Of a stretch of 32,059 bases of DNA, positions 2,761 to 31,043 are shown piece by piece; position 1 is the stretch's first letter, and every line of letters begins with the position of its first letter. Position numbers and translations under genes: made by a program. Source of the DNA: a virus; IMG/VR virus record IMGVR_UViG_3300044707_000020, positions 1 through 32,059 of that record; one strand, written 5' to 3'. The notes under the pieces are model-generated. The model saw nothing but the letters and a program-made list of their open reading frames with translations. It was not told the origin of the DNA and did not search any database.

Positions 2761-5700
2761 GTGGCACTTCCTGTATTTGATAGTGAATGGTTTGGTCTAG
2801 GCGCGGCTGACAAAATTGCGCGGTTTACCGATGCGGGTACAACGCTTGATGAATTAAGAAGCATTGCCGACGAAGGAACTATTCAATGGATGATCAAAGA
2901 GGGCGGGTGGAAACCTCCTCAAGAAACCGTCCAAGAAGTACAGGCACCACCTTCTGATCCCATAGCAGACCTAGCTTCCGAGTTAGGTTTGCCAAAGTTT
3001 CTTGTTGCTAATTTAGTAAATGCTGGTTACTCGGCAGGCGAGATTCGTAATATTTACGCTCCTCCCCCGCCAGAGCCTCCTGCGCCAGAACCCGCCCCTC
3101 CCTCGCCGCCTCCACCTCCCTCACAACCTCCGCCATCAGGACCAACGCCACAGCAGATAGCTGATTCGCAAAGGTCAAAGTTTGGGATGACCGCGGATGA
3201 GTTTAAGACTCGTCTGACGCAAGGAAATCCAAGTGATTTGCTGATGGATCAGCGATTGCTTGAGATAACGCTAGAGAAGTCATGGTCCCCGCAGTTAGCC
3301 GTGGACATGGTGAATACGGCTTTTGGTACAAGCAAAACGGTTAATGATTACACCACGGCAATGTCCAAGGTGTTGCAAGATCCAATTACCAAACTTGTAC
3401 AGAATGGCGCCTCGGCAGAGGAGGTAAGGCAGATAGCTAAAACTATTGGCATCGATGAAACGACCGCCAATGCAGCTATTAGCACTGCGATAAAAACCAA
3501 GGAAGCAAGTGCTATCCAAGCAGACGTTGCCAAGTTCCTAGATAAGGACGGTAATGTCAGCATGACCAAGATTGTTGAATACGCAGATGGCAATAAGCTT
3601 GCGTATGCAGACGTTCAAGATGCGCTGAAAGAAAAGTTCCCCAAGCTCACGACAGACATGCTGGTCTATGAAAAGGACCGGCAACAGATTGCTTCAGTAG
3701 CAGATGCAGCAGGGGCGGTAGGATTGCCCAAGGCTTTGGCACTGGCTATTGATAAGGGTATTGAGATAGACAATCTGGCCAAGTTCTTTAACAAGACGCC
3801 AGATGAATTCAAGACGCTTGTATCAGATAACCTGGGTACGATTGCCACGGCTATTCGAGACTCTGGCACTAATGCCCCGGTAGGATTGGCTGACTTGCTT
3901 GGTATAGACCAGGCTGCAACTAATTCGGCCATGAAGAGCCAAGACTTTGTTGTTGGCCTAAACAAGCTAGCCGATACAAAGGGCAATATCCCATTTGATA
4001 AAGCGCTTGATTACGCATCAAAGAATAATGTCGGTCCGTATGCGCTTGCAGGTTATTTGAAGGTAGCGCCAGAGCAGATATTTAAATACCAGAAAGATCA
4101 GGCTATAGCTTCTGATCTGAATAAGCTTGCGGATGATAAAGGCCAGATTGCTTTTGACAAGGCTCTTCAGTACGCATCGACAAATAACATGTCGATCGAG
4201 GACTTGGCGGGTTATATTGGCGTTAAGCCTGATCAGCTTACACAGTATCAAACAGATACCAAGATTAAATCTGGCTTGGATCTTGCGGCCGGTGAAGATA
4301 AGCAACTAAGTTATGACGAGATCATCAAGTTTGCTTCAGACAACAAGATGAATCTTGCTGATGTTGTGAATTACATCGGTACCCCAGAAAGCCGCAAGGA
4401 CTTATTAACCGGTATTCAAGACTATGTAACCGCCAAAGAAGCAGATGCAAAGCTTACTGGCCAAGAGCGTCTAACCAATCAGCTTAATGAAATCACCAAG
4501 GGTGGAACTACCGCGGGCGTATGGGATAAGAACCAAGGGTGGGACCATCACTCTAAGAAGATGGTTGATTACCTAACCCAATACGGTATTACGGATCTGA
4601 ATCAGATTGGCACGCGCGTGGAAACCAGATCTATGCCTACAACTGAACGAGTTGGAGAGGGAGATGATTTCCGCATGATAGAGGGCGAGCAAGCCACTAA
4701 TTACGTTGTTTACTTTGATAAGAAAACCGGCAAAGAGTTGCAAGCCGTACCTCAGTCCGATAACGGAGGTATGTGGCGCTTTGGATCCGAGGGCGAAGGC
4801 AAGGGAAGTACAGGATACTTCCTTGGACAAACGTCTGGTGGTGGCGCAGGTATAGCCAGCAATTGGGAAGAAAAGTATGGCGCCAGAGAGTATGCCCTTC
4901 CTCTTGCTGTAGCTGCGGCCTTTGCTGCACCTTACTTACTGCCTGAGCTTATTGGTGCCGCAGGCGCAGCAGTAGATGTTGGTGCAGTGGCGGCAGGAAC
5001 CGCCGCATCAACAACTGCGGTGGCATCTGGTGCAACGGGATTAACTGGAATGCTTATGGCGGCTGGTATGCCTGCTACGATAGCGCTGCCTACGGCTACA
5101 GCAATAGCGCGAGGAACATATCAAGGTTTGGTAAACGAGGCTGCTGGCGGCGACTTTAATAAAGGATTTGTTGCTGGCGTGGCCCCTGTTATCGGTACCA
5201 TGGCTGCTCAAGAAGCCTACAAAATGCTATCGAATCTTGAAAATGCGGAAAAAACGGCATTCCTTCTTAATGATCAGCAAGCCACGATTGCAGCAAGAGC
5301 CGTCGGTAGTTCATTGAGCCAGTTGATAGTCGATGGAAAGATTGACTTAACCAAAACACTTACATCAGCTGTGACGCCCTTGGTAACCGAGGCGATTGTG
5401 GATGCCAGCGGCAAAACGATAACGCCCGCACAAGCAAAGTTTATTACGCAAACCGTTCTCTCTGGTGCTCAGAACATAACAGCCATGGCTCAAAACCCGA
5501 TGGCTGTCATGAACTTCATTACCAACAATTCCAAGCTAATTGATGAGATCGCTTCTGGCGCTTCTAATGCGCTGACATCAAACAAAATTACACTCAATGG
5601 CTTAACTGATGACCAACAAAAAGCTTTGGCTGGGGTTAGTGAGCCTGGTAGCGATATAGATCAGCTCGCATCTAACGCTGTGACAGTAACGGGTGCTGCT

Positions 5701-6579
5701 GATACAGCCATGGGATCCTATGGTGAGGATGTAATAACATCCGCTCCAAAAGTTGAGGTCACTGGGCAGAAGGTTACATCCCCTATAGGCCAACAATTAA
5801 CTATAGAAGGTGTCACACCGAGTGCTGGACTTGGGTCAACAAATGTAATGACAAGTACGCCAACCGTTACAGTGACCGGTCAAAAGCCCGCTGAGGCCGT
5901 AGATTTCACTGACATCAACACAATCATCCCTGGCGCCGGCGAAATACAAAAAGCCGGCACTGTGAATGTGGCAGCAAAATCAGAAGATCCAAATGCGGCT
6001 AAGTTAACTGTTGAGTCTAATGTTCCAAAGGCTGAAGATGCCGTAGTAAGCGAAACCCCATCAGTAGTGGTAAATGCAAAATCAATAGTGGATGAACCAC
6101 AGCTCGGCATTAATACTTTGATACCGGATGTCAACGTCGATAAAGGCGGCATCTTTGTTGGTGGCACACCAACGGTAGAGGTTAAGTCAACAAAAGAGTT
6201 GCCTACAGATGATCCTTTGGATATTGGCGGTACAACTACTACGACCACAACAACAGGTGGAACGACTACGACACCCGTAACGCCTACGCCGCCAATAACT
6301 ATTCCACCAATAACGCTAGAACCTGGCATAACAGTTAACAAGCCCGTTGGCCCCGGAACCGGTACTGATAACACGATGGACTTCCAGCAACCCACTGTTT
6401 TAGGTCCAGAACTTTCAACTTATTACGGTATGCCGTATCCTAATTACCTACGTCCCTTGGAGCCTTATTTGCCCATGGGATTAGCCGCACTGATGGAGGC
6501 GATGAATGCTCAAAAGTCGGGGTATGGGGATTATCAATCCCTCCAAAATGCCGCGCCCAAAATTACGATCCCGACGTGA
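2761..6579 (+). CDS. 1272-aa multidomain repeat protein, putative virion/ejection component
   Basis: It starts at a GTG with AAGGTG upstream. An N-terminal helical region is followed by a Pro-rich linker at about residues 101-127. Helical repeats of about 53 residues begin near 401, 454 and 505 (pattern LNKLADxKGxIxFDKALxYAS), with a diverged copy near 256 that contains DKDGN. Residues about 710-785 form a hydrophobic Ala/Gly-rich stretch that could be membrane-active. The C-terminal third has four short repeats of the form TPxVxVxGxK near 990, 1030, 1096 and 1133, a poly-Thr/Pro segment near 1156-1190 and a Tyr/Pro-rich end. I recognise no named family. The size, Ala/Gly-rich hydrophobic block and late-operon position suggest a virion protein, perhaps ejected or tail-associated. 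This is inference. Confidence 0.7.
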   Translation: MALPVFDSEWFGLGAADKIARFTDAGTTLDELRSIADEGTIQWMIKEGGWKPPQETVQEVQAPPSDPIADLASELGLPKFLVANLVNAGYSAGEIRNIYAPPPPEPPAPEPAPPSPPPPPSQPPPSGPTPQQIADSQRSKFGMTADEFKTRLTQGNPSDLLMDQRLLEITLEKSWSPQLAVDMVNTAFGTSKTVNDYTTAMSKVLQDPITKLVQNGASAEEVRQIAKTIGIDETTANAAISTAIKTKEASAIQADVAKFLDKDGNVSMTKIVEYADGNKLAYADVQDALKEKFPKLTTDMLVYEKDRQQIASVADAAGAVGLPKALALAIDKGIEIDNLAKFFNKTPDEFKTLVSDNLGTIATAIRDSGTNAPVGLADLLGIDQAATNSAMKSQDFVVGLNKLADTKGNIPFDKALDYASKNNVGPYALAGYLKVAPEQIFKYQKDQAIASDLNKLADDKGQIAFDKALQYASTNNMSIEDLAGYIGVKPDQLTQYQTDTKIKSGLDLAAGEDKQLSYDEIIKFASDNKMNLADVVNYIGTPESRKDLLTGIQDYVTAKEADAKLTGQERLTNQLNEITKGGTTAGVWDKNQGWDHHSKKMVDYLTQYGITDLNQIGTRVETRSMPTTERVGEGDDFRMIEGEQATNYVVYFDKKTGKELQAVPQSDNGGMWRFGSEGEGKGSTGYFLGQTSGGGAGIASNWEEKYGAREYALPLAVAAAFAAPYLLPELIGAAGAAVDVGAVAAGTAASTTAVASGATGLTGMLMAAGMPATIALPTATAIARGTYQGLVNEAAGGDFNKGFVAGVAPVIGTMAAQEAYKMLSNLENAEKTAFLLNDQQATIAARAVGSSLSQLIVDGKIDLTKTLTSAVTPLVTEAIVDASGKTITPAQAKFITQTVLSGAQNITAMAQNPMAVMNFITNNSKLIDEIASGASNALTSNKITLNGLTDDQQKALAGVSEPGSDIDQLASNAVTVTGAADTAMGSYGEDVITSAPKVEVTGQKVTSPIGQQLTIEGVTPSAGLGSTNVMTSTPTVTVTGQKPAEAVDFTDINTIIPGAGEIQKAGTVNVAAKSEDPNAAKLTVESNVPKAEDAVVSETPSVVVNAKSIVDEPQLGINTLIPDVNVDKGGIFVGGTPTVEVKSTKELPTDDPLDIGGTTTTTTTTGGTTTTPVTPTPPITIPPITLEPGITVNKPVGPGTGTDNTMDFQQPTVLGPELSTYYGMPYPNYLRPLEPYLPMGLAALMEAMNAQKSGYGDYQSLQNAAPKITIPT

Positions 6580-15475: not shown

Positions 15476-15721
15476 ATGTATCGTTACTACGGCATTGACG
15501 TAGCCATGCAAATGCTTCGCCCAGGGGCTAAATGGGAGTGGACATCCGGTGTTGGGTTTACACGCTGGGACGATCCAAGACCATGCCCGTCATGGGAAGA
15601 AGTTGAATTTGTGATGAAGAAGATCAAAGAGTTAGAAGACGCCGTGCCGACGATGTACTTGCCTGAGCAGCAAGCCAAGATTGATGAAGAACGGGCTATG
15701 TTTGAAAAGGCGGCTGCATGA
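15476..15721 (+). CDS. Small conserved phage protein, tail-fibre neighbour
   Basis: This is an 81-aa protein with AGAGG 6 bases before its ATG. The N-terminal half contains IDVAMQMLRPGAKWEWTSG, then FTRWDDPRPCPSWEEVEFVM. The C-terminal half is a charged helix (KKIKELEDAVPTMYLPEQQA and on). I recall this N-terminal half as a repeatedly found small protein beside tail-fibre genes, where it may act as a fibre assembly factor. Its single Cys and conserved Trp residues suggest a compact fold. It overlaps the oxygenase gene by 4 bases (ATGA), so the two are translationally coupled. Confidence 0.75.
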   Translation: MYRYYGIDVAMQMLRPGAKWEWTSGVGFTRWDDPRPCPSWEEVEFVMKKIKELEDAVPTMYLPEQQAKIDEERAMFEKAAA

Positions 15722-16320
15722 ACCTGCACGGACTCTTTGCACAACCCGTTGGGTTCTTTGACCTTGGCAGATCTCTAACCGAGGAAGAGAAGTTTTTCCT
15801 CATGGAACTTGAGCAACGTGCTAATCAGGGAAACCGGACAAGTACCAATAACTTCGTCCTCAAAAGCCCTGTGATGACAAGTCTTAGGTCATGGATGGAA
15901 GATTCGGTGGCTGAGTATTTCAAAGCCACAACCAACCCTAAGCATGATGTCACGCTAAGGCTCACGCAAAGCTGGGTCAACTACAGCGAACCGGGGCAGT
16001 ATCACCACAAACACGCACATCCCAACTCTTTTGTATCAGGCGTGTTCTACATTCAGACCAACCCTAATGACAAGATCTATTTTTATCGGGATGGTTGGCA
16101 GCAGATTAAATTGCCCCCGGCAGAGTGGAACGCATGGAACAGCGAGTCTTGGTGGTTTGAAGCCATTACAGGGCGATTGATTCTTTTCCCATCAAGCCTG
16201 ACGCACATGGTGCCGACTGTAGAGGGTGAGGATGTACGGGTTAGCTTGAGTTTTAACACCTTCCCGCTAGGTACAGTTGGCGAGGAAATGGATTTAACTG
16301 GACTGAAACTGGAGGCTTAG
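15718..16320 (+). CDS. Putative 2-oxoglutarate/Fe(II)-dependent oxygenase
   Basis: This is a 200-aa protein of the 2OG-Fe(II) oxygenase type often found in marine and freshwater phages (TIGR02466-like, by recall). The double-stranded beta-helix core is recognisable from SWVNYSEPGQYHHKHAHPNS, then FVSGVFYIQTNP, GRLILFPSSLTHMV and EDVRVSLSFNTF. The likely iron ligands are in the H99-x-H101 pair and H163, with R174 as the 2-oxoglutarate carboxylate contact. The usual second ligand is D or H, so HxH is acceptable. The substrate is unknown; phage members have been proposed to hydroxylate proteins or modify nucleic acids. Its place in the late operon between adhesin and lysis genes hints at a virion- or envelope-related target. 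Confidence 0.8.
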   Translation: MNLHGLFAQPVGFFDLGRSLTEEEKFFLMELEQRANQGNRTSTNNFVLKSPVMTSLRSWMEDSVAEYFKATTNPKHDVTLRLTQSWVNYSEPGQYHHKHAHPNSFVSGVFYIQTNPNDKIYFYRDGWQQIKLPPAEWNAWNSESWWFEAITGRLILFPSSLTHMVPTVEGEDVRVSLSFNTFPLGTVGEEMDLTGLKLEA

Positions 16321-21908: not shown

Positions 21909-22258
21909 ACGAATGGGAGCGTTGCAGCGCATGGATCCAAGCGGCCTTGGACCAAGCCGGCAATTTGTTTTCCCTAGAGGATGTGTTAGAAGCAATACAG
22001 CAAGGGCAGGCGCAGTTTTGGCCCGGTAAGGAATGTGCGCTAGTAACAGAGATTAAGCAGTACCCACGCAAAAGGCTTTGTAATGTGTGGCTTGCAGGGG
22101 GCAATTTAGATGAGATTCAGCATATCGTGACGTACATACGATTGTTCGCCAAGCAAGCAGACTGTGATGCCATCATGTTGCAAGGGCGTCCGGGCTGGCA
22201 GAAGATATACCCGCAACGATTGAAAACAGTAACTTTGATGGAAGAGGTGTCCAAATGA
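21905..22258 (+). CDS. Conserved phage protein (117 aa), possibly acetyltransferase-fold
   Basis: This overlaps both neighbours by 4 bases. Key stretches are FSLEDVLEAIQQGQAQFWPG, CALVTEIKQYPRKRLCNVWL, AGGNLDEIQHIVTYIRLFAK and GCDAIMLQGRPGWQKIYP (the C precedes D in this protein as ADCDAIM). The pattern VTEIxxYPRKR...LAGGxLxEI...GRPGW is one I recall in very many phage proteins of about this length that sit next to internal-virion genes. The strand-helix layout hints at a GNAT-like fold, but the usual acetyl-CoA loop is not clear, so I do not claim activity. A non-enzymatic virion role is equally possible. Confidence 0.75.
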   Translation: MNEWERCSAWIQAALDQAGNLFSLEDVLEAIQQGQAQFWPGKECALVTEIKQYPRKRLCNVWLAGGNLDEIQHIVTYIRLFAKQADCDAIMLQGRPGWQKIYPQRLKTVTLMEEVSK

Positions 22259-22998
22259 GTATGGGCGGCCCGTCGCAAACAGTCACACAAATGCCCCCGG
22301 AGTTCCAACTCCCGTACATATCTGATGTGTTCCGCATGGGGCAGCAGATTGCGTATACCCCCTATACGCCTTACTCTCAGCAGCGATATGCTGAGACGTC
22401 GCCTTTGTACCAGCAAGGCGTTGAAGCTGCTCAGCAAGCTGCTGCTTCTCCCGGTCTGCTTGGTCAGATTGACGTGGGCGGCCAGAAGATGGGCGTCATG
22501 CAGGCTTACATGAATCCGTACCAGCAAGGTGTTACGGATGTGGCCAAAGCTGCCGCGGTGCGTGATTACACACAGGGATTGCAAAGCCTGAAAGCACAAG
22601 CCGGTCAGCGCGGTGCGTTCGGTGGTTCGCGTCAGGCGATTGTTGAATCAGATCTCATGCGTAATCTTGGATCTCAGCTATCCAATATCCAGATGCAGGG
22701 ATCGGCTGCGGCTTATGACAAGGCTGGCCAGCTGTATCAGCAAGACTTAGCCAATCAAATGCAGAAGGCTCAGACCTTGCAGCAGCTTGGGCTTACGGAT
22801 GAAGCACGCCGTCAGCGCGATTTGGATGCCATGTATCAAGAGTTCCAGCAGCAGCGGGATTATCCGGCGCAGCAGGCAGAGCGTTACAGGAACATCATCT
22901 TTGGCTTACCAGGTTATGCCACACAGTCTGCTTATCAGTCTTCTGGTAATCCACTAACCCAAGGGTTAGGATTAGCACGTCTCTTGTACGGGGGCTAA
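22255..22998 (+). CDS. Putative internal virion protein (small ejection protein, gp14-like position)
   Basis: This is a 247-aa protein coupled to the upstream gene by ATGA. The N-terminus is Pro/Gln/Tyr-rich (QMPPEFQLPYISDVFRMGQQ, then YTPYTPYSQQRYAE). The middle is the recognisable core: YMNPYQQGVTDVAKAAAVRD, LKAQAGQRGAFGGSRQAIVE, LMRNLGSQLSNIQMQGSAAA, then a long Gln-rich helix to about residue 210. I recall this core in many uncultured podovirus-like phages directly before very large internal proteins. With the next two genes (492 and 2095 aa) it gives the small-medium-giant order of T7 gp14-gp15-gp16. The match is by position and composition, not by sequence homology I can demonstrate. 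Confidence 0.75.
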   Translation: MSMGGPSQTVTQMPPEFQLPYISDVFRMGQQIAYTPYTPYSQQRYAETSPLYQQGVEAAQQAAASPGLLGQIDVGGQKMGVMQAYMNPYQQGVTDVAKAAAVRDYTQGLQSLKAQAGQRGAFGGSRQAIVESDLMRNLGSQLSNIQMQGSAAAYDKAGQLYQQDLANQMQKAQTLQQLGLTDEARRQRDLDAMYQEFQQQRDYPAQQAERYRNIIFGLPGYATQSAYQSSGNPLTQGLGLARLLYGG

Positions 22999-23001
22999 GC
23001 A

Positions 23002-24480
23002 ATGCAAGCACAAGCAAATACCGGCCTTGGCGGGGATGTCAATATCCTTGAGGCCATGGAGATGTTTAAGGCAGTGCCCGATCAGGTGCTGCCTAAGTAC
23101 GCACAAGATCCTAAGCTAGCGATCTTTGCTGCGGCGGAAATGGCTCGCCGGGAGGATATGCGTAAGCGTTACAGCCAGAGGGCGCAGAAGCCTAACAAGC
23201 CTGTTATTGCTCAGTTGTCTGAGTCCATGGCGCCGAGTATGCCCATGATGCCGCCTGGTATGAATGCTCCACAAGAGCAGCAGCCTATGCAGATGGCTCC
23301 GTCGCAACAAGAAATGCCACAAGCCGGTCTTGCTGGGCTGATGCCTGAGCAGCGCATGGCCGGTGGCGGCCCTGTTGCATTTCAGTTTGGTGGTGGTGTC
23401 GGTGCAGAGTTTGGTGGCGACCCAGTAGTCGAAGAAGAGAAAGAGGTCCGCGTACCTGCCATTATCAATGGTCAGCGTGTCATGGCTACAGCAGCGCAAT
23501 TGCGTGCGGCTGGCTATCCTGAGTCCACGATTCAGCAACGTGTTAAAGAGGCTGCACCTAAGCCTGCACAACCAGCTGCACAACCAGCTCAGCCCCAACA
23601 AAGACAGCAGGTTATTGCACCGCAACAAGTTATTGCACCGCAACAAGCCCCTGCCGCTCAAGCTCCTATGGGTATTGAGCAGATCATCGCTATGGGCAAG
23701 AAGGCTTTGTCCGGTGTTCCACAGATCCAGCCAGAACTTGCGGCTGAAACCGCTGCTCGTGCCGGGACGCTTTATGACGAACGACAGAAGCGCTTCCCAG
23801 ACCAGATGTCTCCAATCATGGAGCAGCTAAAGAAGTTCTACGGCCAGCAGCCTACGCAAGAAGACATCCAGAAAGCTGCTAATCGTCAGATCGCTCTATC
23901 CATGTTGGGCAGTAAAGATCGTAACTTCCTCGCTGGTTTGGCTGGTGGGTTGCAGGCCGGCGAAGATGTTAAGAAGTCTATGGGCGCAGAGAATCGTGCG
24001 ATGCAACAAGCTTCATTGCAGGCACAGTTGGCTCATGCCAAGTACCAAGATGCTGTACGTCGCGGGGATTATGATGCGGCTGATAGGGCGGCAAGAGAAG
24101 AGCGTACATACAGACTTCAAACGCAGAAGCTAGCGCAAGAGCAAGCAATGCAGCCACTTGAAGTTGGTCTTGGTTTGGCCAAGGCTATGCAGCCAAAGGG
24201 TGGTGGCGCGGAACCTGGGCTAAAGCCAAAAGATGCTGCTGAGATTCAAATGAAGGTTATGGCGGTTGCTAAGCCAGAGCTTGATGCGCTTGAAGCGGAA
24301 TATAAAAAACGTGCAAGCAATTTGTTTTTTGATCGCGGCCCTAAGAATTACCAAGAAGATCCTGAGTATCAGAGACGCAGGCAGGCTATTATTCAACGTG
24401 TTATGTCAGAGCAAGCACCGCAACTTATGGGGGTAGCTCAAGTGACACCAGCAGGAATGAGACAACTTGTGGGGCGCTAA
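23002..24480 (+). CDS. Putative internal virion protein (medium ejection protein)
   Basis: This is a 492-aa protein, 3 bases after the previous gene. The N-terminus (ILEAMEMFKAVPDQVLPKYA, then QDPKLAIFAAAEMARREDMR) is helical. A Met/Pro/Gln-rich linker (~75-110) contains GGGPVAFQFGGG at about 125-136. A second Ala/Pro/Gln linker holds tandem short repeats near 190-215. The C-terminal half is strongly helical and charged, with KKFYGQQPTQEDIQKAANRQ, LSMLGSKDRNFLAGLAGGLQ and AHAKYQDAVRRGDYDAADRA. No enzymatic motif is visible. Its position between the small and giant internal proteins suggests the middle ejection protein. Its stop abuts the next start directly. Confidence 0.72.
   Translation: MQAQANTGLGGDVNILEAMEMFKAVPDQVLPKYAQDPKLAIFAAAEMARREDMRKRYSQRAQKPNKPVIAQLSESMAPSMPMMPPGMNAPQEQQPMQMAPSQQEMPQAGLAGLMPEQRMAGGGPVAFQFGGGVGAEFGGDPVVEEEKEVRVPAIINGQRVMATAAQLRAAGYPESTIQQRVKEAAPKPAQPAAQPAQPQQRQQVIAPQQVIAPQQAPAAQAPMGIEQIIAMGKKALSGVPQIQPELAAETAARAGTLYDERQKRFPDQMSPIMEQLKKFYGQQPTQEDIQKAANRQIALSMLGSKDRNFLAGLAGGLQAGEDVKKSMGAENRAMQQASLQAQLAHAKYQDAVRRGDYDAADRAAREERTYRLQTQKLAQEQAMQPLEVGLGLAKAMQPKGGGAEPGLKPKDAAEIQMKVMAVAKPELDALEAEYKKRASNLFFDRGPKNYQEDPEYQRRRQAIIQRVMSEQAPQLMGVAQVTPAGMRQLVGR
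23566..23646 (+). repeat. Two adjacent short tandem repeats in ejection-protein linker
   Basis: The 12-bp unit GCACAACCAGCT occurs twice at 23566-23589. The 18-bp unit GTTATTGCACCGCAACAA occurs twice without interruption at 23611-23646. Both are in frame and encode AQPA-type and VIAPQQ repeats of a flexible linker. Exact identity of the copies points to recent slippage. Confidence 0.9.
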
Positions 24481-27400
24481 ATGCCTATCTTCAATGTACC
24501 GGGCCGCGGCCGTGTTCAATTACCTGATGGCTATACACAAGAAGAGTATGCGTTAGCCATAAGTAAACTCAGCGGGGCTGACCAGTATCAGCCTGAGTTT
24601 TCCTTGGGGCAAAAGGCTTTTGCTCCGATCGCTAGGACGTTGCAAAACATAGGCACGTCTTTGACGACTGAATTACCGGCCATGGGTCTTGCGGCTATTG
24701 GCAAAGATGAAGCCGCTCGTCAGTTACTTGGTGAAGCAAAGCAACGTTATGCAGAGACAGAACGCATGGCGCCAAGGATGTACCAGTCTTATGAGGATGT
24801 GACAGGTCCGCTATCTGCTCTGGGTTTTGCCTATGAGCGTGCTGGGGAGGCCTTACCTTATGGACTTGCTATGTTACTACCTGGGGGCGCCGCTGCTGCT
24901 GGTGCTAGAGGTATTGCAGCAAGGGCTGGAACCGCTGCTACAGAAGCTGCCCTTGCCAGAGGTTTGCCTGCTGCGGCTGCTGAATCTCTTGGCGCAGCTC
25001 GTGCAACACAAGTTATGCAACGTGCAGGATTGGGAGGCGCTGGTGTTGGAGGCTATGCGCTAAACGCTCCTGAAACCTTTGCCAAGGTTGCTGAAGAGAC
25101 AGGTGAACTGCGCCCCGGTGTTGCTGCCACGGCCGCCATTGGTCAGACGCTCCTAGACCTAGTAGCCCCATCAGCCTTCCTCAGTAAGCTTGGTATGTTT
25201 GGCAAGCTTAAGGCTAGCGAAGAAGTTGCCAAGCGTGCTGGCTTTACCGAAGCCGCCAAGGATCTTGCGATAGCAGCTGCTAAGACTGCACCCAAGGAAG
25301 GACTTACCGAGGCCGCTCAAGAAGTCATTGGTAACGCAGCCGTAGACTTTGTGCGTGGCAGCGGTGATCTATTCTCGCCAGAGCGTATCAAACAGTATAT
25401 CGAAGCAGGTCTATCCGGTGCTGTTGGTGGTGGTGCTCTTGGCGCTGCTGGTCGTGGCATTCAGCGTATTGGTATGCCTGTTGAGCAACCCGCCCAACCT
25501 CAGCAAGCCGCCGTTGCCGAGCCACAAGTCACACAGCCTGCCGCTGAAGACACCCTACTAAAGTATCAAATTCCGTCCATGGACGGAATTACACCTGAGA
25601 CTGTTACAGATCAAGCACTTACGCCACAGCCTTCAAGTGTTGGCTATCAAGTACCGCCCGAAATCTTCACAGAAACACCGGTTGACCAGAAATATTTCGA
25701 GCAATTTGTTGCGGATATTATGGCTGGCGTACCTCGTCAGGCGCCAGAGGATCAGCAGTTTTATGCCAATAATGCGCCGGCGATTGAGCAGCGTTTGCGT
25801 GAGGCTCAGGCCGCACCTGCGTTACCTGCGCCGACGCCACAAGAAACGGGCGAGTTAAATATCCCTGTACCTCAAGCAGAGGTGCTTCAGTTAGCTGCGC
25901 CTGATCAGGTTGCCGCTGAGCAAGTTGTTGAAGAAGGTCCACCTGAGTTTGTTGAGCCTCCTCCCATGGAAGGTCCGGCCCCGCTAAGCGAAGAAGACCA
26001 AAGGATTACAGACGAAATAGCTGATCTAGAGAAACAAGCGGCTGAACTAGCTACGCAAAAAGAGGCCGTTGAAGCTAGGGAGCGCAAGCGTAAGACGCAA
26101 GGGGATACGTTCCTTAACGCGCTGAAGAAGGCTGGTGTCAGTGCCAAGGATGTTGCAGATATACGCAGGACCCAATCTGACAAGAACCTTGATAAGGCCG
26201 TTGTTAGTGGCCTCTTGGATCCATGGCTTGGAGAGTTTTCATCTGTTGCGGTTGACCGGGCGGATGTGTTTGACCAGAAGATGAAGCAAAACGAGGCAGT
26301 CGAGTATCTCAAAGACCGCATCTTGAATTATGACTATGTAAGCGACACGACGAAGGCTGAGCTTGCTGATTTAGATCTCAAGCTAGACGAAGTGTTAACC
26401 ATGATTAGGGAGTTTCGCAGTGAACTTGAAGCCAATCTTAAAGCCGCGGAAGCTGCCGATGAGCAAAGAGTTGTTTATGAGCAAGTGGAACAAACTATCC
26501 CCGAAGGCGAAGAGCGAGTTGCTGAACCTGGCGAAGCTGCCAGACCTGAACGTGAAGCTGCCAGAGCTGAAGTAGCCTTCACGCCTCAGTCTTATGCTGA
26601 GCAGATGATGGATGGTACGTTGCCTGATACAGATGAAGCTTATGCGTACTTCCAAGAGAATCAGCAAGAGATCGAGCAGGCACTGTCTGACCTAGAGGAT
26701 CGCCGTGCTCAGCCGATGATGAAGGCTACGGCGGGGCAGTCTAAAACATCACAGAGCCATGCGAATGATCTGGGTGGGGTTGTGGTCTGGCAGGACGGTG
26801 ATCTTGCGCTCATTCGGGCTCATTCCGACAGAACCGGCGATCCTGTTTATGTGGTAGCTAACGGGGTTTTCCGTTCGAGCAAAGATGTAGAGAACTACAC
26901 AGGCAATCTGATCAATGCAACACAAAAGGCGCGGTTAGTTGCGGCCAAGGAATCACTTGAGAAGAAGGATAAGGCTCTGCATGACAAATCACCATTCATC
27001 AAGTTTGATGCCGATGGTGTTGCAGTGTCGCAAAGCGTTTCCCCGCAATTGGCCGGTGTGATTGCAGGGTGGAAGAAGCTTCTCAAGATTCCACAGAATG
27101 TGTATGTCACAACGATTGAAGATGTGGTGGCTAACCGTGGAAAGTTCACAGGACCACACCGGACGATCGGATCTGCGGCGCTTGGTGGTGAGCTTGGTTC
27201 CATGCGAAAGATGGCGGATGGTAACTACTACATAGCATTTACCAAGGACGCATCAGTTACACGGATGCTAGAGACGCTGGCTCATGAATTTGGCCACATC
27301 CATGAGCGTGAGTCATTTAGGAGCGCCGATCTTGCAACGCAGCGTTCCATACGTGACGAGTTTGATAAGTTCCTAAAATCCTCCAAAGGCAAATCGGCCA

Positions 27401-30400
27401 AGGATTACATCCAGTCCATGAGGGCACGAGGCGTTGGTAAAGTTACTAAAGCCGGAGAGAAGACTAAGTTTGAGGATCTAACGCCTTACTGGAAGAGCTT
27501 TGAAGAATGGTACGCAGACCAAGTATCACGCTGGGCAACGACATCAGAAAAGCCGCTGACAGTTGTAGAGAGGTTCTTCAAGCGTCTTGCAGATGCGCTC
27601 AAGTCCTTTTACGCAAAGCTACGCAATCAGAAGTACCTGCCCAACGAAACCTTTAAGCAGTACATGGATAAGGTCACGGCCAATGTCAAAGACATAGCCC
27701 CTGTCCGCGTGGAAGCTAAGCCACTTGGTGTGAAGGACCAGATGGCTTTGTTTATGAAAGATCAGCTAGAGCCAAGTGACACTGAGATCCAATACATGCG
27801 CCGGAGCGTTGAAGGATTAACTGACGCCGGCAAGGATCTATCGCCACAAGAGCAGCAAGATCTGTTTAACGCCGTGGACAAGATTGATGACACGCCCGCT
27901 GAAGGTATGAAGTCCATGGATACGATGATCAAAGACACACCGTCTTTTGAGGGCGCTAAAGCAAAGCTTGGTCAGTATGTCAAAGACGCAACGTCAGATA
28001 ACGCCCAAACCTTGTTGCAGTTTTTGAACCTTAGACAGATTGCTGAGTTGGCCAAGAAAGATCTGCCGCAGGTACGTCAGTACTACGATGTGCTCAATAA
28101 AATGCTAGTCGAGCGCGACAAAAAACTAACTACCGCAAGCAAGCTTCGTGAGAAGTGGGACCAGTGGGCCGACAAGAATCCTAAGCTTGGTGAGGCACTG
28201 GACAAAGTAATCCTTGATGCCCGCATGTCTGGTATTGATCCAACGATCCCTGAGAAAGAAGCAAAAATTAAGAGTGAATCTTTCCGCAAGAACTGGGAAA
28301 TGATCAAGGGTACGGAAGGCGAGGAGATCTTTAAGGAGCTTCGTGATTACTACAAAGAACAGCTTAAAGACAAGAGGGCCATCCTTAAAAGGCTTATTAC
28401 TACCAAGATCACGGATGTTAATGAGCGTGCCAAGAGCTTGCGTGAACTGGACTTTGAGTTCCAGAAGTTTGAGAGTGAAGGCCCGTACTTCCCTCTTAGC
28501 AGGTTTGGCCAGTACTTTATTGCTTATGACATCAAGCTACCTAGCGGCGATACGAAGCCTTACCATGAGATGTTTGAGTCCATGGCCGATCTTCGCAAGC
28601 ATGAGGAAGGCATCGCTAAGGATGTGGCTAGCGGCAAGATCATTAACTTAAAAAGTGGTGTTGATACCAAGGAGCTGTACACCGAAGGCGTCATCAAGTC
28701 TGCGTTCATCAACAAAATCTTTGCAGCTATTGATAAGACGGACCAGCCAACGCTGTCAGACTCTAACGGTCGGGCGATGGACGTGAAGAATAGGCTTAAG
28801 GACGATGTGTACCAGGTTTACCTGTCCATGCTTCCTGAGTTGTCTGTTCAAAAGAACTTCATTCATGCCAAGAAAGTTGCTGGTGCATCGCTTGATATGC
28901 GACGTGCTTTTGCTGAGTCAGCATTCCATAGTGCGTATAACTTGGCGCGTATGGAGTACGGCCCCACGCTAGATGCAATTATTAGTGAGGCGCAGCGGTA
29001 CTCTGATTCACAAAAAGGCACAAGGAATATTGCTCGGGATCGTTACCTTCAAGAATTGAAGGCGCAGCATTATGACTTTAGCAATCCAAAGGATAATCAT
29101 CCGGTTTGGTCAAAGATTACAAGCTTTGCATTCTTGTACTACCTGACCGCGCCAGCATCAGCGATTGGCAACTTAATCCAAACGCCTGTTATTGGCATAC
29201 CAACACTGGCAGGCGAGTTTGATGTTTCGTATGCCAAGGCAAGTAAGGAGATATTTAAGGCTTTTAGTGACTTCAGATCTGCGAGGAAAAAAGGTACAGC
29301 CCAGTATGACCTGGTTGGTATGCTGGAGAAACAAGCCGAAGAAAGAAACTCTGCAATCCTGAAGGAAGAAGCAGAGATCATGTCTGATCTTGAAGGCGTT
29401 ACCAACAGGACTCAAACGCTTTCCTTGGCCGGGCTGGCTGAACGTCCTAGCGGTTTGTACGCTACAGGCGTCAAGAGCATTATTCGTTCTAAGTCTCTTG
29501 GTGTTCTTGATAAGGCCTCATTAATACTTGGTTATGGATTTAACCTAGCAGAGATTGCCAACCGCCAGGTCACAGCGCTTGCTGCGATTAGGCTTGCCAA
29601 ATCGAAGGGCATGAACAGGGCCCAGACTATTCAACTCGCAAGGGATTTAATTGACAAGATTCACTTTGAGTATGCGTCTGAAACCAAGCCAAGGTTCATG
29701 CGTCATCCTATTGCTCAGGTAACGCTACAGTTTAAGAACTACGCTCAACAGATGACCGCCTTCATAGCCCAAGCTATCAAGGAGTCTTTGCCAAATACGC
29801 GTGAATTGAATGCGTTGCTTTTGAGGTCACAGGATAAAGGCTTATCAGAGGATGAGCGTTACGCCGCCAAGCGCGAGTACGATGAGCTAACAAGGATCAA
29901 GAAAGCTGCAAGGACGCGTCTCACTGGTGTCATGGGTATGACCGCTCTCTTTGCCGGGTATGAAGGCTTGCCTTTGTACTGGGTCATCGAAGGCGTCATG
30001 AACCTTATCTTTGATGATGAAGACGAACCTTATGATTTCAGCCTAGAACTAAAGGTTGCCATGGCAAATGCGTTTGGTGACAACGTGTCGCGGGCGCTAA
30101 GCAAGGGGCCAATGTCAGAGATCCTTCAGGTAGACGTTAGCAGGTTTGCTAACCTCAACGACCTCTGGTTCCGTGATGATGCGATGGCTAAAGATGAGGA
30201 AGAGTGGGCCAAGAATATGTTGATTGACATGCTTGGACCAGCGGCAGGTATTGTTCTGAACGTAGCCGGCGGCATCAAGAAGATTAACGAAGGCAACTAC
30301 GCAAGGGGCATGGAAGAAATCTCACCGCCTGTGGTGAAAGACTTCTTCAAAGCTTGGAGGTTCTACCATGAGGGTGCAACAACCCTGCGCGGAGATCCGA

Positions 30401-30768
30401 TTGTTCCTGACGTAGGTCTATGGGGAATTTTTGCGCAGTCGCTTGGCTTCACGCCGCAGGATCTTCAGCGTGGTTACGAAGCCATGGGAGAGATCAAGAG
30501 CCTGGATAGGCAACTGGCTCAACGCGAGCAAAGGCTTTTATCAAAACTGTTCTTGGCTTACAAGAGTGGTGACTATGAAGAGATGGATGATATTGGTGAG
30601 CAGATCATCCGGTACAACAGCAAGAACCCTGGCAACGAAATTGATGACAAGAAGATCAAGCGATCGTTTGCTCAGCGTGAGCGTATGTCTGAGCGTGCCG
30701 AGAAGGGGATTATTGTGAGCGCCAAGCGTCCAGAGTTGCTTGAGAAGACCGTTTACTTGGAGGACTGA
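24481..30768 (+). CDS. Giant ejection/polyvalent virion protein with metallopeptidase domain (2095 aa)
   Basis: The N-terminus (FNVPGRGRVQLPDGYTQEEY) is followed at about 110-345 by Ala/Gly-rich hydrophobic segments that could cross membranes. A Pro/Gln/Glu-rich linker runs from about 335 to 510, then coiled coils (about 510-550 and 620-690). At 935-939 lies HEFGH, a zincin motif (H935, E936, H939), with FEEWYADQVSRW near 1007 supplying a likely third ligand (E1008 or E1009). The helical C-terminal half includes FLYYLTAPASAIGNLIQTPV near 1548, which resembles a large-polyvalent-protein-associated domain (LPD38 by recall). The last ~110 residues (GFTPQDLQRGYEAM to the end) are also typical of giant phage internal proteins. 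It probably enters the host with the DNA; the peptidase may cut envelope or host proteins. Confidence 0.82.
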   Translation: MPIFNVPGRGRVQLPDGYTQEEYALAISKLSGADQYQPEFSLGQKAFAPIARTLQNIGTSLTTELPAMGLAAIGKDEAARQLLGEAKQRYAETERMAPRMYQSYEDVTGPLSALGFAYERAGEALPYGLAMLLPGGAAAAGARGIAARAGTAATEAALARGLPAAAAESLGAARATQVMQRAGLGGAGVGGYALNAPETFAKVAEETGELRPGVAATAAIGQTLLDLVAPSAFLSKLGMFGKLKASEEVAKRAGFTEAAKDLAIAAAKTAPKEGLTEAAQEVIGNAAVDFVRGSGDLFSPERIKQYIEAGLSGAVGGGALGAAGRGIQRIGMPVEQPAQPQQAAVAEPQVTQPAAEDTLLKYQIPSMDGITPETVTDQALTPQPSSVGYQVPPEIFTETPVDQKYFEQFVADIMAGVPRQAPEDQQFYANNAPAIEQRLREAQAAPALPAPTPQETGELNIPVPQAEVLQLAAPDQVAAEQVVEEGPPEFVEPPPMEGPAPLSEEDQRITDEIADLEKQAAELATQKEAVEARERKRKTQGDTFLNALKKAGVSAKDVADIRRTQSDKNLDKAVVSGLLDPWLGEFSSVAVDRADVFDQKMKQNEAVEYLKDRILNYDYVSDTTKAELADLDLKLDEVLTMIREFRSELEANLKAAEAADEQRVVYEQVEQTIPEGEERVAEPGEAARPEREAARAEVAFTPQSYAEQMMDGTLPDTDEAYAYFQENQQEIEQALSDLEDRRAQPMMKATAGQSKTSQSHANDLGGVVVWQDGDLALIRAHSDRTGDPVYVVANGVFRSSKDVENYTGNLINATQKARLVAAKESLEKKDKALHDKSPFIKFDADGVAVSQSVSPQLAGVIAGWKKLLKIPQNVYVTTIEDVVANRGKFTGPHRTIGSAALGGELGSMRKMADGNYYIAFTKDASVTRMLETLAHEFGHIHERESFRSADLATQRSIRDEFDKFLKSSKGKSAKDYIQSMRARGVGKVTKAGEKTKFEDLTPYWKSFEEWYADQVSRWATTSEKPLTVVERFFKRLADALKSFYAKLRNQKYLPNETFKQYMDKVTANVKDIAPVRVEAKPLGVKDQMALFMKDQLEPSDTEIQYMRRSVEGLTDAGKDLSPQEQQDLFNAVDKIDDTPAEGMKSMDTMIKDTPSFEGAKAKLGQYVKDATSDNAQTLLQFLNLRQIAELAKKDLPQVRQYYDVLNKMLVERDKKLTTASKLREKWDQWADKNPKLGEALDKVILDARMSGIDPTIPEKEAKIKSESFRKNWEMIKGTEGEEIFKELRDYYKEQLKDKRAILKRLITTKITDVNERAKSLRELDFEFQKFESEGPYFPLSRFGQYFIAYDIKLPSGDTKPYHEMFESMADLRKHEEGIAKDVASGKIINLKSGVDTKELYTEGVIKSAFINKIFAAIDKTDQPTLSDSNGRAMDVKNRLKDDVYQVYLSMLPELSVQKNFIHAKKVAGASLDMRRAFAESAFHSAYNLARMEYGPTLDAIISEAQRYSDSQKGTRNIARDRYLQELKAQHYDFSNPKDNHPVWSKITSFAFLYYLTAPASAIGNLIQTPVIGIPTLAGEFDVSYAKASKEIFKAFSDFRSARKKGTAQYDLVGMLEKQAEERNSAILKEEAEIMSDLEGVTNRTQTLSLAGLAERPSGLYATGVKSIIRSKSLGVLDKASLILGYGFNLAEIANRQVTALAAIRLAKSKGMNRAQTIQLARDLIDKIHFEYASETKPRFMRHPIAQVTLQFKNYAQQMTAFIAQAIKESLPNTRELNALLLRSQDKGLSEDERYAAKREYDELTRIKKAARTRLTGVMGMTALFAGYEGLPLYWVIEGVMNLIFDDEDEPYDFSLELKVAMANAFGDNVSRALSKGPMSEILQVDVSRFANLNDLWFRDDAMAKDEEEWAKNMLIDMLGPAAGIVLNVAGGIKKINEGNYARGMEEISPPVVKDFFKAWRFYHEGATTLRGDPIVPDVGLWGIFAQSLGFTPQDLQRGYEAMGEIKSLDRQLAQREQRLLSKLFLAYKSGDYEEMDDIGEQIIRYNSKNPGNEIDDKKIKRSFAQRERMSERAEKGIIVSAKRPELLEKTVYLED
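25569..25590. repeat. Perfect 22-bp palindrome, copy 2 (inside coding sequence)
   Basis: This is identical over all 22 bp to the palindrome at 1816-1837 (half-site AATTCCGTCCA plus its inverted complement). Here it is in frame and encodes IPSMDGI at residues 364-370 of the 2095-aa protein, inside the low-complexity Pro/Gln/Glu linker. Flanking bases differ from copy 1, so only the palindrome itself is shared. Being inside a gene, it cannot simply be a terminator. Confidence 0.9.
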
Positions 30769-31043
30769 AGCGCTTCTAGGGTCATGGCAAGAAGGTCTAA
30801 CTCGCTAAGCTTATAGCGGGTATAGAACCCTCTCTCGCCAAGGCCATGGACGCCTGAGTTTCCTTGATGGTGCTCAGGGCACAAAGGCACTACCAGGAAG
30901 TTGCTCGCTCTCTGGCTCATACCTTGGCCCTCTCTGATGTGGTGGATCTGAGCCGGGGTTGCCCCAAGGTCTAAGTGTTTGCACAGGATGCACCCCATAC
31001 TGGCGACGCGATCCATGTGCGCTTTATCTGCTTTCCTGGTCAT
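30753..31043 (-). CDS. Ref/HNH-like nuclease (RecA-dependent nuclease family)
   Basis: This is a 96-aa protein on the minus strand with metal-binding and catalytic residues in the order C18, C21 (CILC), H34-H35 (IHHIREGQG), C55, H58-H59 (LCPEHHQG) and H66. This is the arrangement of the Ref family of phage P1, a compact HNH-type nuclease, as seen in short phage homologues. The end FYTRYKLSELDLLAMTLEAL also fits. Phage members are thought to act in recombination or DNA processing. RecA dependence of this short version is not demonstrable from sequence. The start overlaps the upstream stop (ATGA). The 3' end overlaps the giant virion gene on the opposite strand by 16 bases. Confidence 0.8.
   Translation of the reverse strand: MTRKADKAHMDRVASMGCILCKHLDLGATPAQIHHIREGQGMSQRASNFLVVPLCPEHHQGNSGVHGLGERGFYTRYKLSELDLLAMTLEALQSSK

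Follow-up and report, generated by a model that had tools for sequence, protein, structure and literature searches.

A zincin-like module directly ahead of the LPD39/PLxRFG tail of a phage polyvalent protein, a candidate processing protease

In this study, we examined a giant gene in a 32,059-base virus record (IMG/VR record IMGVR_UViG_3300044707_000020; the whole stretch is referred to here as the window), in which an open reading frame on the plus strand runs uninterrupted from 24481 to 30768 and encodes a protein of 2095 amino acids (aa). Judged by its domain matches, the product is a phage polyvalent protein, in which a zincin metallopeptidase is joined to an LPD39 domain and a PLxRFG tail. 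We propose that the zincin is an active processing protease that would free cargo from this packaging tail, a reading to which we give a probability of roughly one half; zinc binding, the proteolysis, its cut site and timing and the location of the protein in the virion are what we infer. What was observed is the motif and its conservation, a predicted fold of zincin type, a constant position ahead of the tail and the exchange of cassettes. The features of the protein are the following.

24481-30768, plus strand: polyvalent/ejection-type protein P0001, 2095 aa (open reading frame; LPD39; NF032893; PHROG 10089, DarB-like)
24481-26640, plus strand: N-terminal block, residues 1-720, which exchanges independently (block identities)
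26698-27762, plus strand: zincin metallopeptidase module, residues 740-1094 (alignment, AlphaFold, VIA-align, block replacement in relatives)
27148-27162, plus strand: TGPHR, residues 890-894, invariant in 20/20; H893 is a candidate active-site pocket residue
27283-27297, plus strand: HEFGH, residues 935-939, the two predicted zinc-binding histidines and the putative general-base glutamate
27499-27522, plus strand: FEEWYADQ, residues 1007-1014, with the probable third zinc ligand E1009 and D1013, on a helix predicted to follow that of HExxH
27757-27810, plus strand: empty cassette slot C, residues 1093-1110, reading '..MKD' and then 'QLEPSDTEIQYMRRS'; relatives carry an ART-PolyVal (ADP-ribosyltransferase) or ParB-like insert here
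27961-28491, plus strand: LPD39 (PF18858), residues 1161-1337 (Pfam E 1.3e-17)
28480-30765, plus strand: PLxRFG/DarB-like tail, mostly helical (NF032893; PHROG 10089)

The HEFGH sequence is the single HExxH of the protein, in which 0.010 would be expected from composition over the entire length, and FEEWYADQ begins at residue 1007, 72 residues past H935. An original prediction, made from the letters of the window, had taken these two elements for a complete zincin arrangement, and this is borne out by the conservation of the ligands in relatives. We gathered relatives from 25 distinct viral contigs, giving 26 proteins together with that of the window; 14 contigs were retrieved by a zincin-region query, which biases them towards conservation, and 11 by the C-terminal region only (L016, L019, L022, L024, L026 and L027-L032). 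HExxH is kept in 26/26 proteins, including 11/11 contigs retrieved through the C-terminus alone, while H893, H935, E936, H939, E1009 and D1013 are invariant in the sequences that align to the zincin of the window (20/20, down to 45% identity), so that the loss of HExxH or of the glutamate in close relatives, named beforehand as a reason to give up the prediction, did not occur. Since E1009 is invariant and E1008 varies among the 20 aligned sequences, E1009 and not E1008 would be the third ligand. The ExxxD arrangement is typical of gluzincins. The HEFGH/E1009 motif almost certainly belongs to a zinc-protease (zincin) domain, and the conserved residues suggest that residues ~740-1094 form a catalytically competent gluzincin-like metallopeptidase, in which H935, H939 and E1009 would bind zinc and E936 would serve as the general base.

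Structure prediction had been proposed as a check on this domain and, run on residues 740-1094 with AlphaFold (predicted local distance difference test, pLDDT, 79.9; predicted template modelling score, pTM, 0.78), it gave a model with a zincin-like fold. The predicted order is a helix (855-868), three strands (874-878, 906-910 and 916-920), the HExxH helix (926-946) and the Glu helix (1007-1020), a topology that equals the core given by Iyer et al. (2017; PMC5512222). The top rows returned by VIA-align were mostly zincins or zincin-like proteins (Z 5-8, up to 8.0; root mean square deviation ~4; 150-165 residues aligned), with anthrax factor N-domains in the top rows and Certhrax, PPEP-1/2/3, IrrE and ERAP aminopeptidases among the matches; no family besides these zincins was prominent in the list, an absence that is not evidence. 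The top match in BFVD was a 'large polyvalent protein associated domain-containing protein' (40% identity, E 8.5e-18). Single-sequence searches of Pfam and of PDB sequences with the zincin gave weak matches only, neither the zincin profile nor the tail profile matched a PDB sequence, and a zincin search of genome contigs returned 95 stretches, none of which is a relative. An HExxH that arose by chance in a non-enzymatic domain would agree with two negative searches, as no Pfam family covering the zincin reaches its cut-off (Peptidase_M78 comes nearest, E 0.04) and the profile matches no solved structure; however, the 20/20 conservation already disfavours such an accident, as do position and predicted fold, and we consider it very improbable.

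The C-terminal polyvalent-type region that had been suggested was confirmed not only by the LPD39 match but also by the NF032893 PLxRFG 'tail-700' domain of NCBIfam, which scores 470.8 bits against a curated cut-off of 100 (E 7.5e-141). Among PHROGs the top match is 10089, annotated as 'DarB-like antirestriction' (residues 1319-2083, E 4.8e-95), and the AlphaFold model of the tail was too poor for use (pLDDT 54). Within the protein of the window the zincin is the sole recognised enzyme domain. Polyvalent proteins combine disparate domains and LPDs in one polypeptide, as is found here, and close relatives add ART-PolyVal and FtsK_gamma. The N-terminus is rich in Ala/Gly; the membrane-prone segments formerly assigned to it were not recovered, as a 19-residue hydropathy scan (cut-off 1.3, a crude measure) lists a single segment, which is C-terminal (1914-1932, score 1.60). 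Two short helical stretches (residues ~403-452 and ~697-748) look alike by eye and gave no mutual BLAST match.

The position of the zincin was compared across phages with a homologous tail. A homologous LPD39 and tail are shared by PLxRFG/DarB-like proteins from, among others, Lastavirus, Pavtokvirus and Skulduggeryvirus; the 28 best listed records are 23-31% identical across 31-45% of the query, and the majority of those inspected have, as in the window, a zincin motif immediately ahead of the tail. We fetched 14 named phages and dropped Itty13 (L048), in which the record start cuts the gene; HE(x2-3)H lies upstream of the tail in 11/13. When the count was confined to the 12 phages with a comparable match start, leaving out RHph_TM29, the motif was found at most 420 aa upstream of the tail in 10/12 and in the tails themselves in 0/12, compared with a mean of 0.28 (maximum 3/12) within the same upstream distance in shuffled sequences. 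Five permuted or substituted control motifs occurred upstream in 0/12, and one of them, HQ(x2-3)H, in the tail in 3/12. Not all of the 12 phages count as independent, since PEp14 is close to Pavtok and ZX1 to SopranoGao. In two Vibrio phages the motif takes the HExxxH form, a variant reported among polyvalent-protein metallopeptidases (Iyer et al., 2017; PMC5512222), and the zincins of the named phages, compared by eye, fall in different sequence groups. Likewise, six relatives of the window protein (L027-L032) carry a zincin with the pattern HHE[VI]IHA[LM]R ... EEG[VI]ARAFE at the same place; we treat it as a different zincin, because hhalign detects no relation to that of the window (probability 0.7%), although with shallow alignments (effective sequence number, Neff, about 2) remote homology is possible. 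On these sequence comparisons, the place directly ahead of LPD39 and the PLxRFG tail is a fixed position, occupied by dissimilar zincins.

The gene also appears to be assembled from exchangeable blocks. A second zincin allele, 57% identical and with all catalytic residues kept, takes the place of the entire zincin block in near-identical phages (L016, L022, L024 and L026). The DNA of L016 is 95% identical to that of the window over residues 54-721, 68% over 862-1064 and 99.5% from 1115 through the downstream genes; at third codon positions, identity is 23-47% in the zincin block (windows 721 to 1021) and 92-100% in all tail windows starting at 1157 or later. Between L016 and L026 the pattern is reversed, with 98-100% identity in protein and third positions over residues 637 to 1117, and 42-80% in protein and 23-58% at third positions from residue 1177. 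All four combinations of zincin and tail alleles were found (M1C1 in the window, M1C2 in L014, M2C1 in L016 and M2C2 in L022), and there is an additional exchange at about residues 1-90 of the N-terminal block. Approximately unbiased (AU) tests gave weak results for a conflict between the trees (tail tree, without L007, L008 and L010, which were short or lacked the anchor, p 0.032; zincin tree, p 0.101), in part because identical rows were left free, and our claim of recombination is founded on the block identities and not on these tests. By these identities the polyvalent gene is modular, with related phages apparently swapping the zincin and its neighbours like cassettes. In L015 (L015:3-4118) a 48% identical zincin is joined to a different tail, LPD38, a fusion that reads as evidence of the zincin module moving between tail types. 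We found no description of zincin allele exchange in the parts covered of PMC5512222, PMC12810830 (P1 Dar), PMC5576092, PMC9505181 (Klebsiella phage ZX1) and PMC13299392, the last of which simply cites the first.

Further variation is found in three cassette slots. Slot C, directly after the zincin, is filled in 9/26 proteins, with ART-PolyVal in seven (L006, L013, L014, L028, L029, L030 and L032) and an insert judged ParB-like by eye in two (L004 and L005); 15 proteins, that of the window among them, have no visible cassette, and the slot is not readable in L012, which stops before it, and in L015, where the downstream region is different. The ParB-like inserts (L004:8856-9368 and L005:8859-9362) contain 'SEGNHRIMVAAEKG', which by eye resembles ParB/Srx-type sequences, and the L005 insert has no Pfam match above the cut-off. 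In slot A, near residues 400-454, FtsK_gamma is present in L002, L012 and L019, while slot B, near residues 686-698, holds a ~117-aa insert in L006 (L006:7311-7709) and L013 (L013:7320-7712), the L006 copy of which has no Pfam match. A candidate universal cut or junction site, '..PSxxEIQYM..', was dropped, as it flanks slot C in the zincin group of the window and is absent from L016, L022, L024, L026, L015 and L027-L032.

The same exchange suits a different role, in which the phage would inject the zincin as an effector to cleave a host protein, such as a defence factor, just after entry, with allele swapping tracking host variation. The block replacement by an allele with intact catalytic residues among near-identical phages is what such an effector might show, the adjoining slot C carries cassettes of ADP-ribosyltransferase, an effector-type enzyme, and host-directed peptidases are allowed for in Iyer et al. 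(2017; PMC5512222). However, the exchange is not specific to the zincin, as the N-terminal and tail blocks also have diverged alleles, and a host-directed effector would not need a constant place before the tail. We regard a host-directed protease as the main and a serious rival to processing, possible although not the reading we favour.

According to the processing model that we favour, the gene product would be a polyvalent internal (ejection-type) virion protein that is probably injected with the DNA. By analogy with encapsidation in N4, LPD39 and the PLxRFG tail would probably serve to bring the protein into the head and then to export it through the portal. Near the module boundary, the peptidase would most likely cleave its own chain or the other internal proteins, either during packaging or after entry, and the N-terminal and slot cargo, which in relatives includes FtsK-gamma, ADP-ribosyltransferase and ParB-like domains, would thereby be freed from the tail. 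Such metallopeptidases have been suggested to attack host proteins or to process their own chain, whether before packaging, inside the head or once the cell has been entered; the model for self-processing is P1 DdrB, whose cleavage precedes packaging and is attributed to its own metallopeptidase, and we count this for processing (Iyer et al., 2017; PMC5512222).

Several observations weigh against this model. The VIA-align Z scores (maximum 8.0) are at a level that the notes of the program call possibly a mere common arrangement, and Foldseek of the zincin model against the PDB gave nothing at E <= 0.001. In PBC5 and Atu_ph08 (2/12) the visible upstream region has no HE(x2-3)H, and the tail can therefore work without a zincin. 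One tail allele occurs with two zincin alleles, so that a cut site would have to be generic or inside the module. Furthermore, the N4 virion RNA polymerase, which has a similar order of an HExxH domain and then a helical tail, is packaged unprocessed (Iyer et al., 2017; PMC5512222); processing after entry would therefore be at least as likely as processing before packaging. The N4 protein also lends itself to the idea that the zincin fold is mainly structural and aids encapsidation or channel assembly, with proteolysis dispensable, because its C-terminal region, which includes the HExxH domain, is required for encapsidation although the packaged protein is intact (Iyer et al., 2017; PMC5512222). 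A full catalytic site conserved down to 45% identity, and an HE(x2-3)H kept in dissimilar zincins at the same place, would be hard to explain without chemistry, and a purely structural role seems unlikely to us.

The zincin of the window is of a known kind, because Iyer et al. (2017; PMC5512222) describe mid-chain zincin-like peptidases in polyvalent proteins; in that account these are the commonest polyvalent-protein domain (~36% of the proteins), placed N-terminally, C-terminally or in the middle. The domain is one of these already described zincins: the HExxH helix, Glu helix and three-stranded core lie mid-chain in a large LPD-bearing phage protein, and the relatives bear ART, FtsK-gamma and ParB-like domains. 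It differs from their phage clade with Asp three residues after HExxH, as the window group has E, M or Q there, and, with no Pfam family at the cut-off, it is not assignable to one of their 12 clades. A mid-chain protease in an ejection protein, as originally predicted, is upheld as to the zincin and the probable ejection context, and is not supported as a novelty.

T7 gp16 is a large internal protein with an enzymatic unit. The comparison with it that accompanied the original prediction holds loosely, in that both are large internal proteins with such a unit; unlike gp16, the window protein has no transglycosylase domain by Pfam, where neither an SLT nor a lysozyme family appears among matches up to E 1. 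A nearer analogue is the N4 virion RNA polymerase (gp50), an ejected giant protein whose structure shows an HExxH C1 domain and then a large, mostly helical C-terminal region, C2 (PMC12633501), although Pfam gives no RNA polymerase domain in the window protein. With hhalign against N4 residues 2125-3500 there was no detectable relation (probability 0.1% for the tail and 1.7% for the zincin). The N4 sequence 'INYDRLPGRFRGYMESMGLMWFYNFKIRSIKVAM' (L050, residues 2125-3500) and 'FEYASETKPRFMRHPIAQVTLQFKNYAQQM' of the window look alike by eye, a resemblance to which hhalign gives no support. Two full-length PLxRFG proteins were scanned for cargo and, unlike that of the window, the one of Klebsiella ZX1 has extra helicase, methyltransferase and transglycosylase domains and that of Vibrio douglas 12A4 an extra pyrophosphatase domain. 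Phage-delivered, exchangeable effector domains are also known from MuF polymorphic toxins; there, the part that varies is at the C-terminus and linked to MuF (PMC5576092), whereas the cassettes of the window group lie inside the protein, after the zincin and before the tail.

Two genes precede the polyvalent gene.

22255-22998, plus strand: 247-aa protein, two genes upstream (PHROG 4287, 'DNA ejection protein', E 1.2e-7)
23002-24480, plus strand: 492-aa protein, a probable second internal protein by its position between the ejection-like and polyvalent genes

The second of these has no PHROG match, and other genes nearby match virion structural PHROGs. On the basis of the PHROG 4287 match of its neighbour, the 2095-aa protein is probably an internal or ejection protein, which would place it in the virion. 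Its 3' end is overlapped by the end of a minus-strand gene (30753-31043) for an HNH-like RecA-dependent nuclease (PF16786, E 2.2e-7). Elsewhere in the window, a 2OG-Fe(II) oxygenase (15718-16320, plus strand; PF13759, E 1.8e-21) lies among structural and tail-fibre genes. Three consecutive plus-strand genes for small proteins (1566-1817, 1860-2456 and 2456-2752) have near-identical basic end tags, DGCAKRGKTKGTMVVM, DGIAKRGKTRGRYI and DGVATKGKTKGTMVKM (at 1779, 2427 and 2696), and the third contains DUF6496. A 1272-aa protein (2761-6579, plus strand) has a Pro-rich linker and repeated 'NKLADxKGxIxFDKALxYAS' units, with no PHROG match and no Pfam match above the cut-off.

The very common peptidase domains of injected phage proteins have several candidate roles (PMC5512222). 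This phage group offers natural experiments, one tail being combined with either of two zincin alleles and one zincin being found with or without an ADP-ribosyltransferase cassette, and these combinations make the processing hypothesis directly testable. In addition, the cassette slot is a place in which to seek new anti-defence enzymes. More tentatively still, the zincin slot may be conserved by position and not by sequence, taking dissimilar types that include HExxxH forms, with recombination exchanging both the zincin and the effector cassettes beside it in the phage group of the window; if this is true, 'cargo-release scissors' would describe the general part played by the zincin in the LPD39/PLxRFG delivery system, freeing effectors from the tail on entry.

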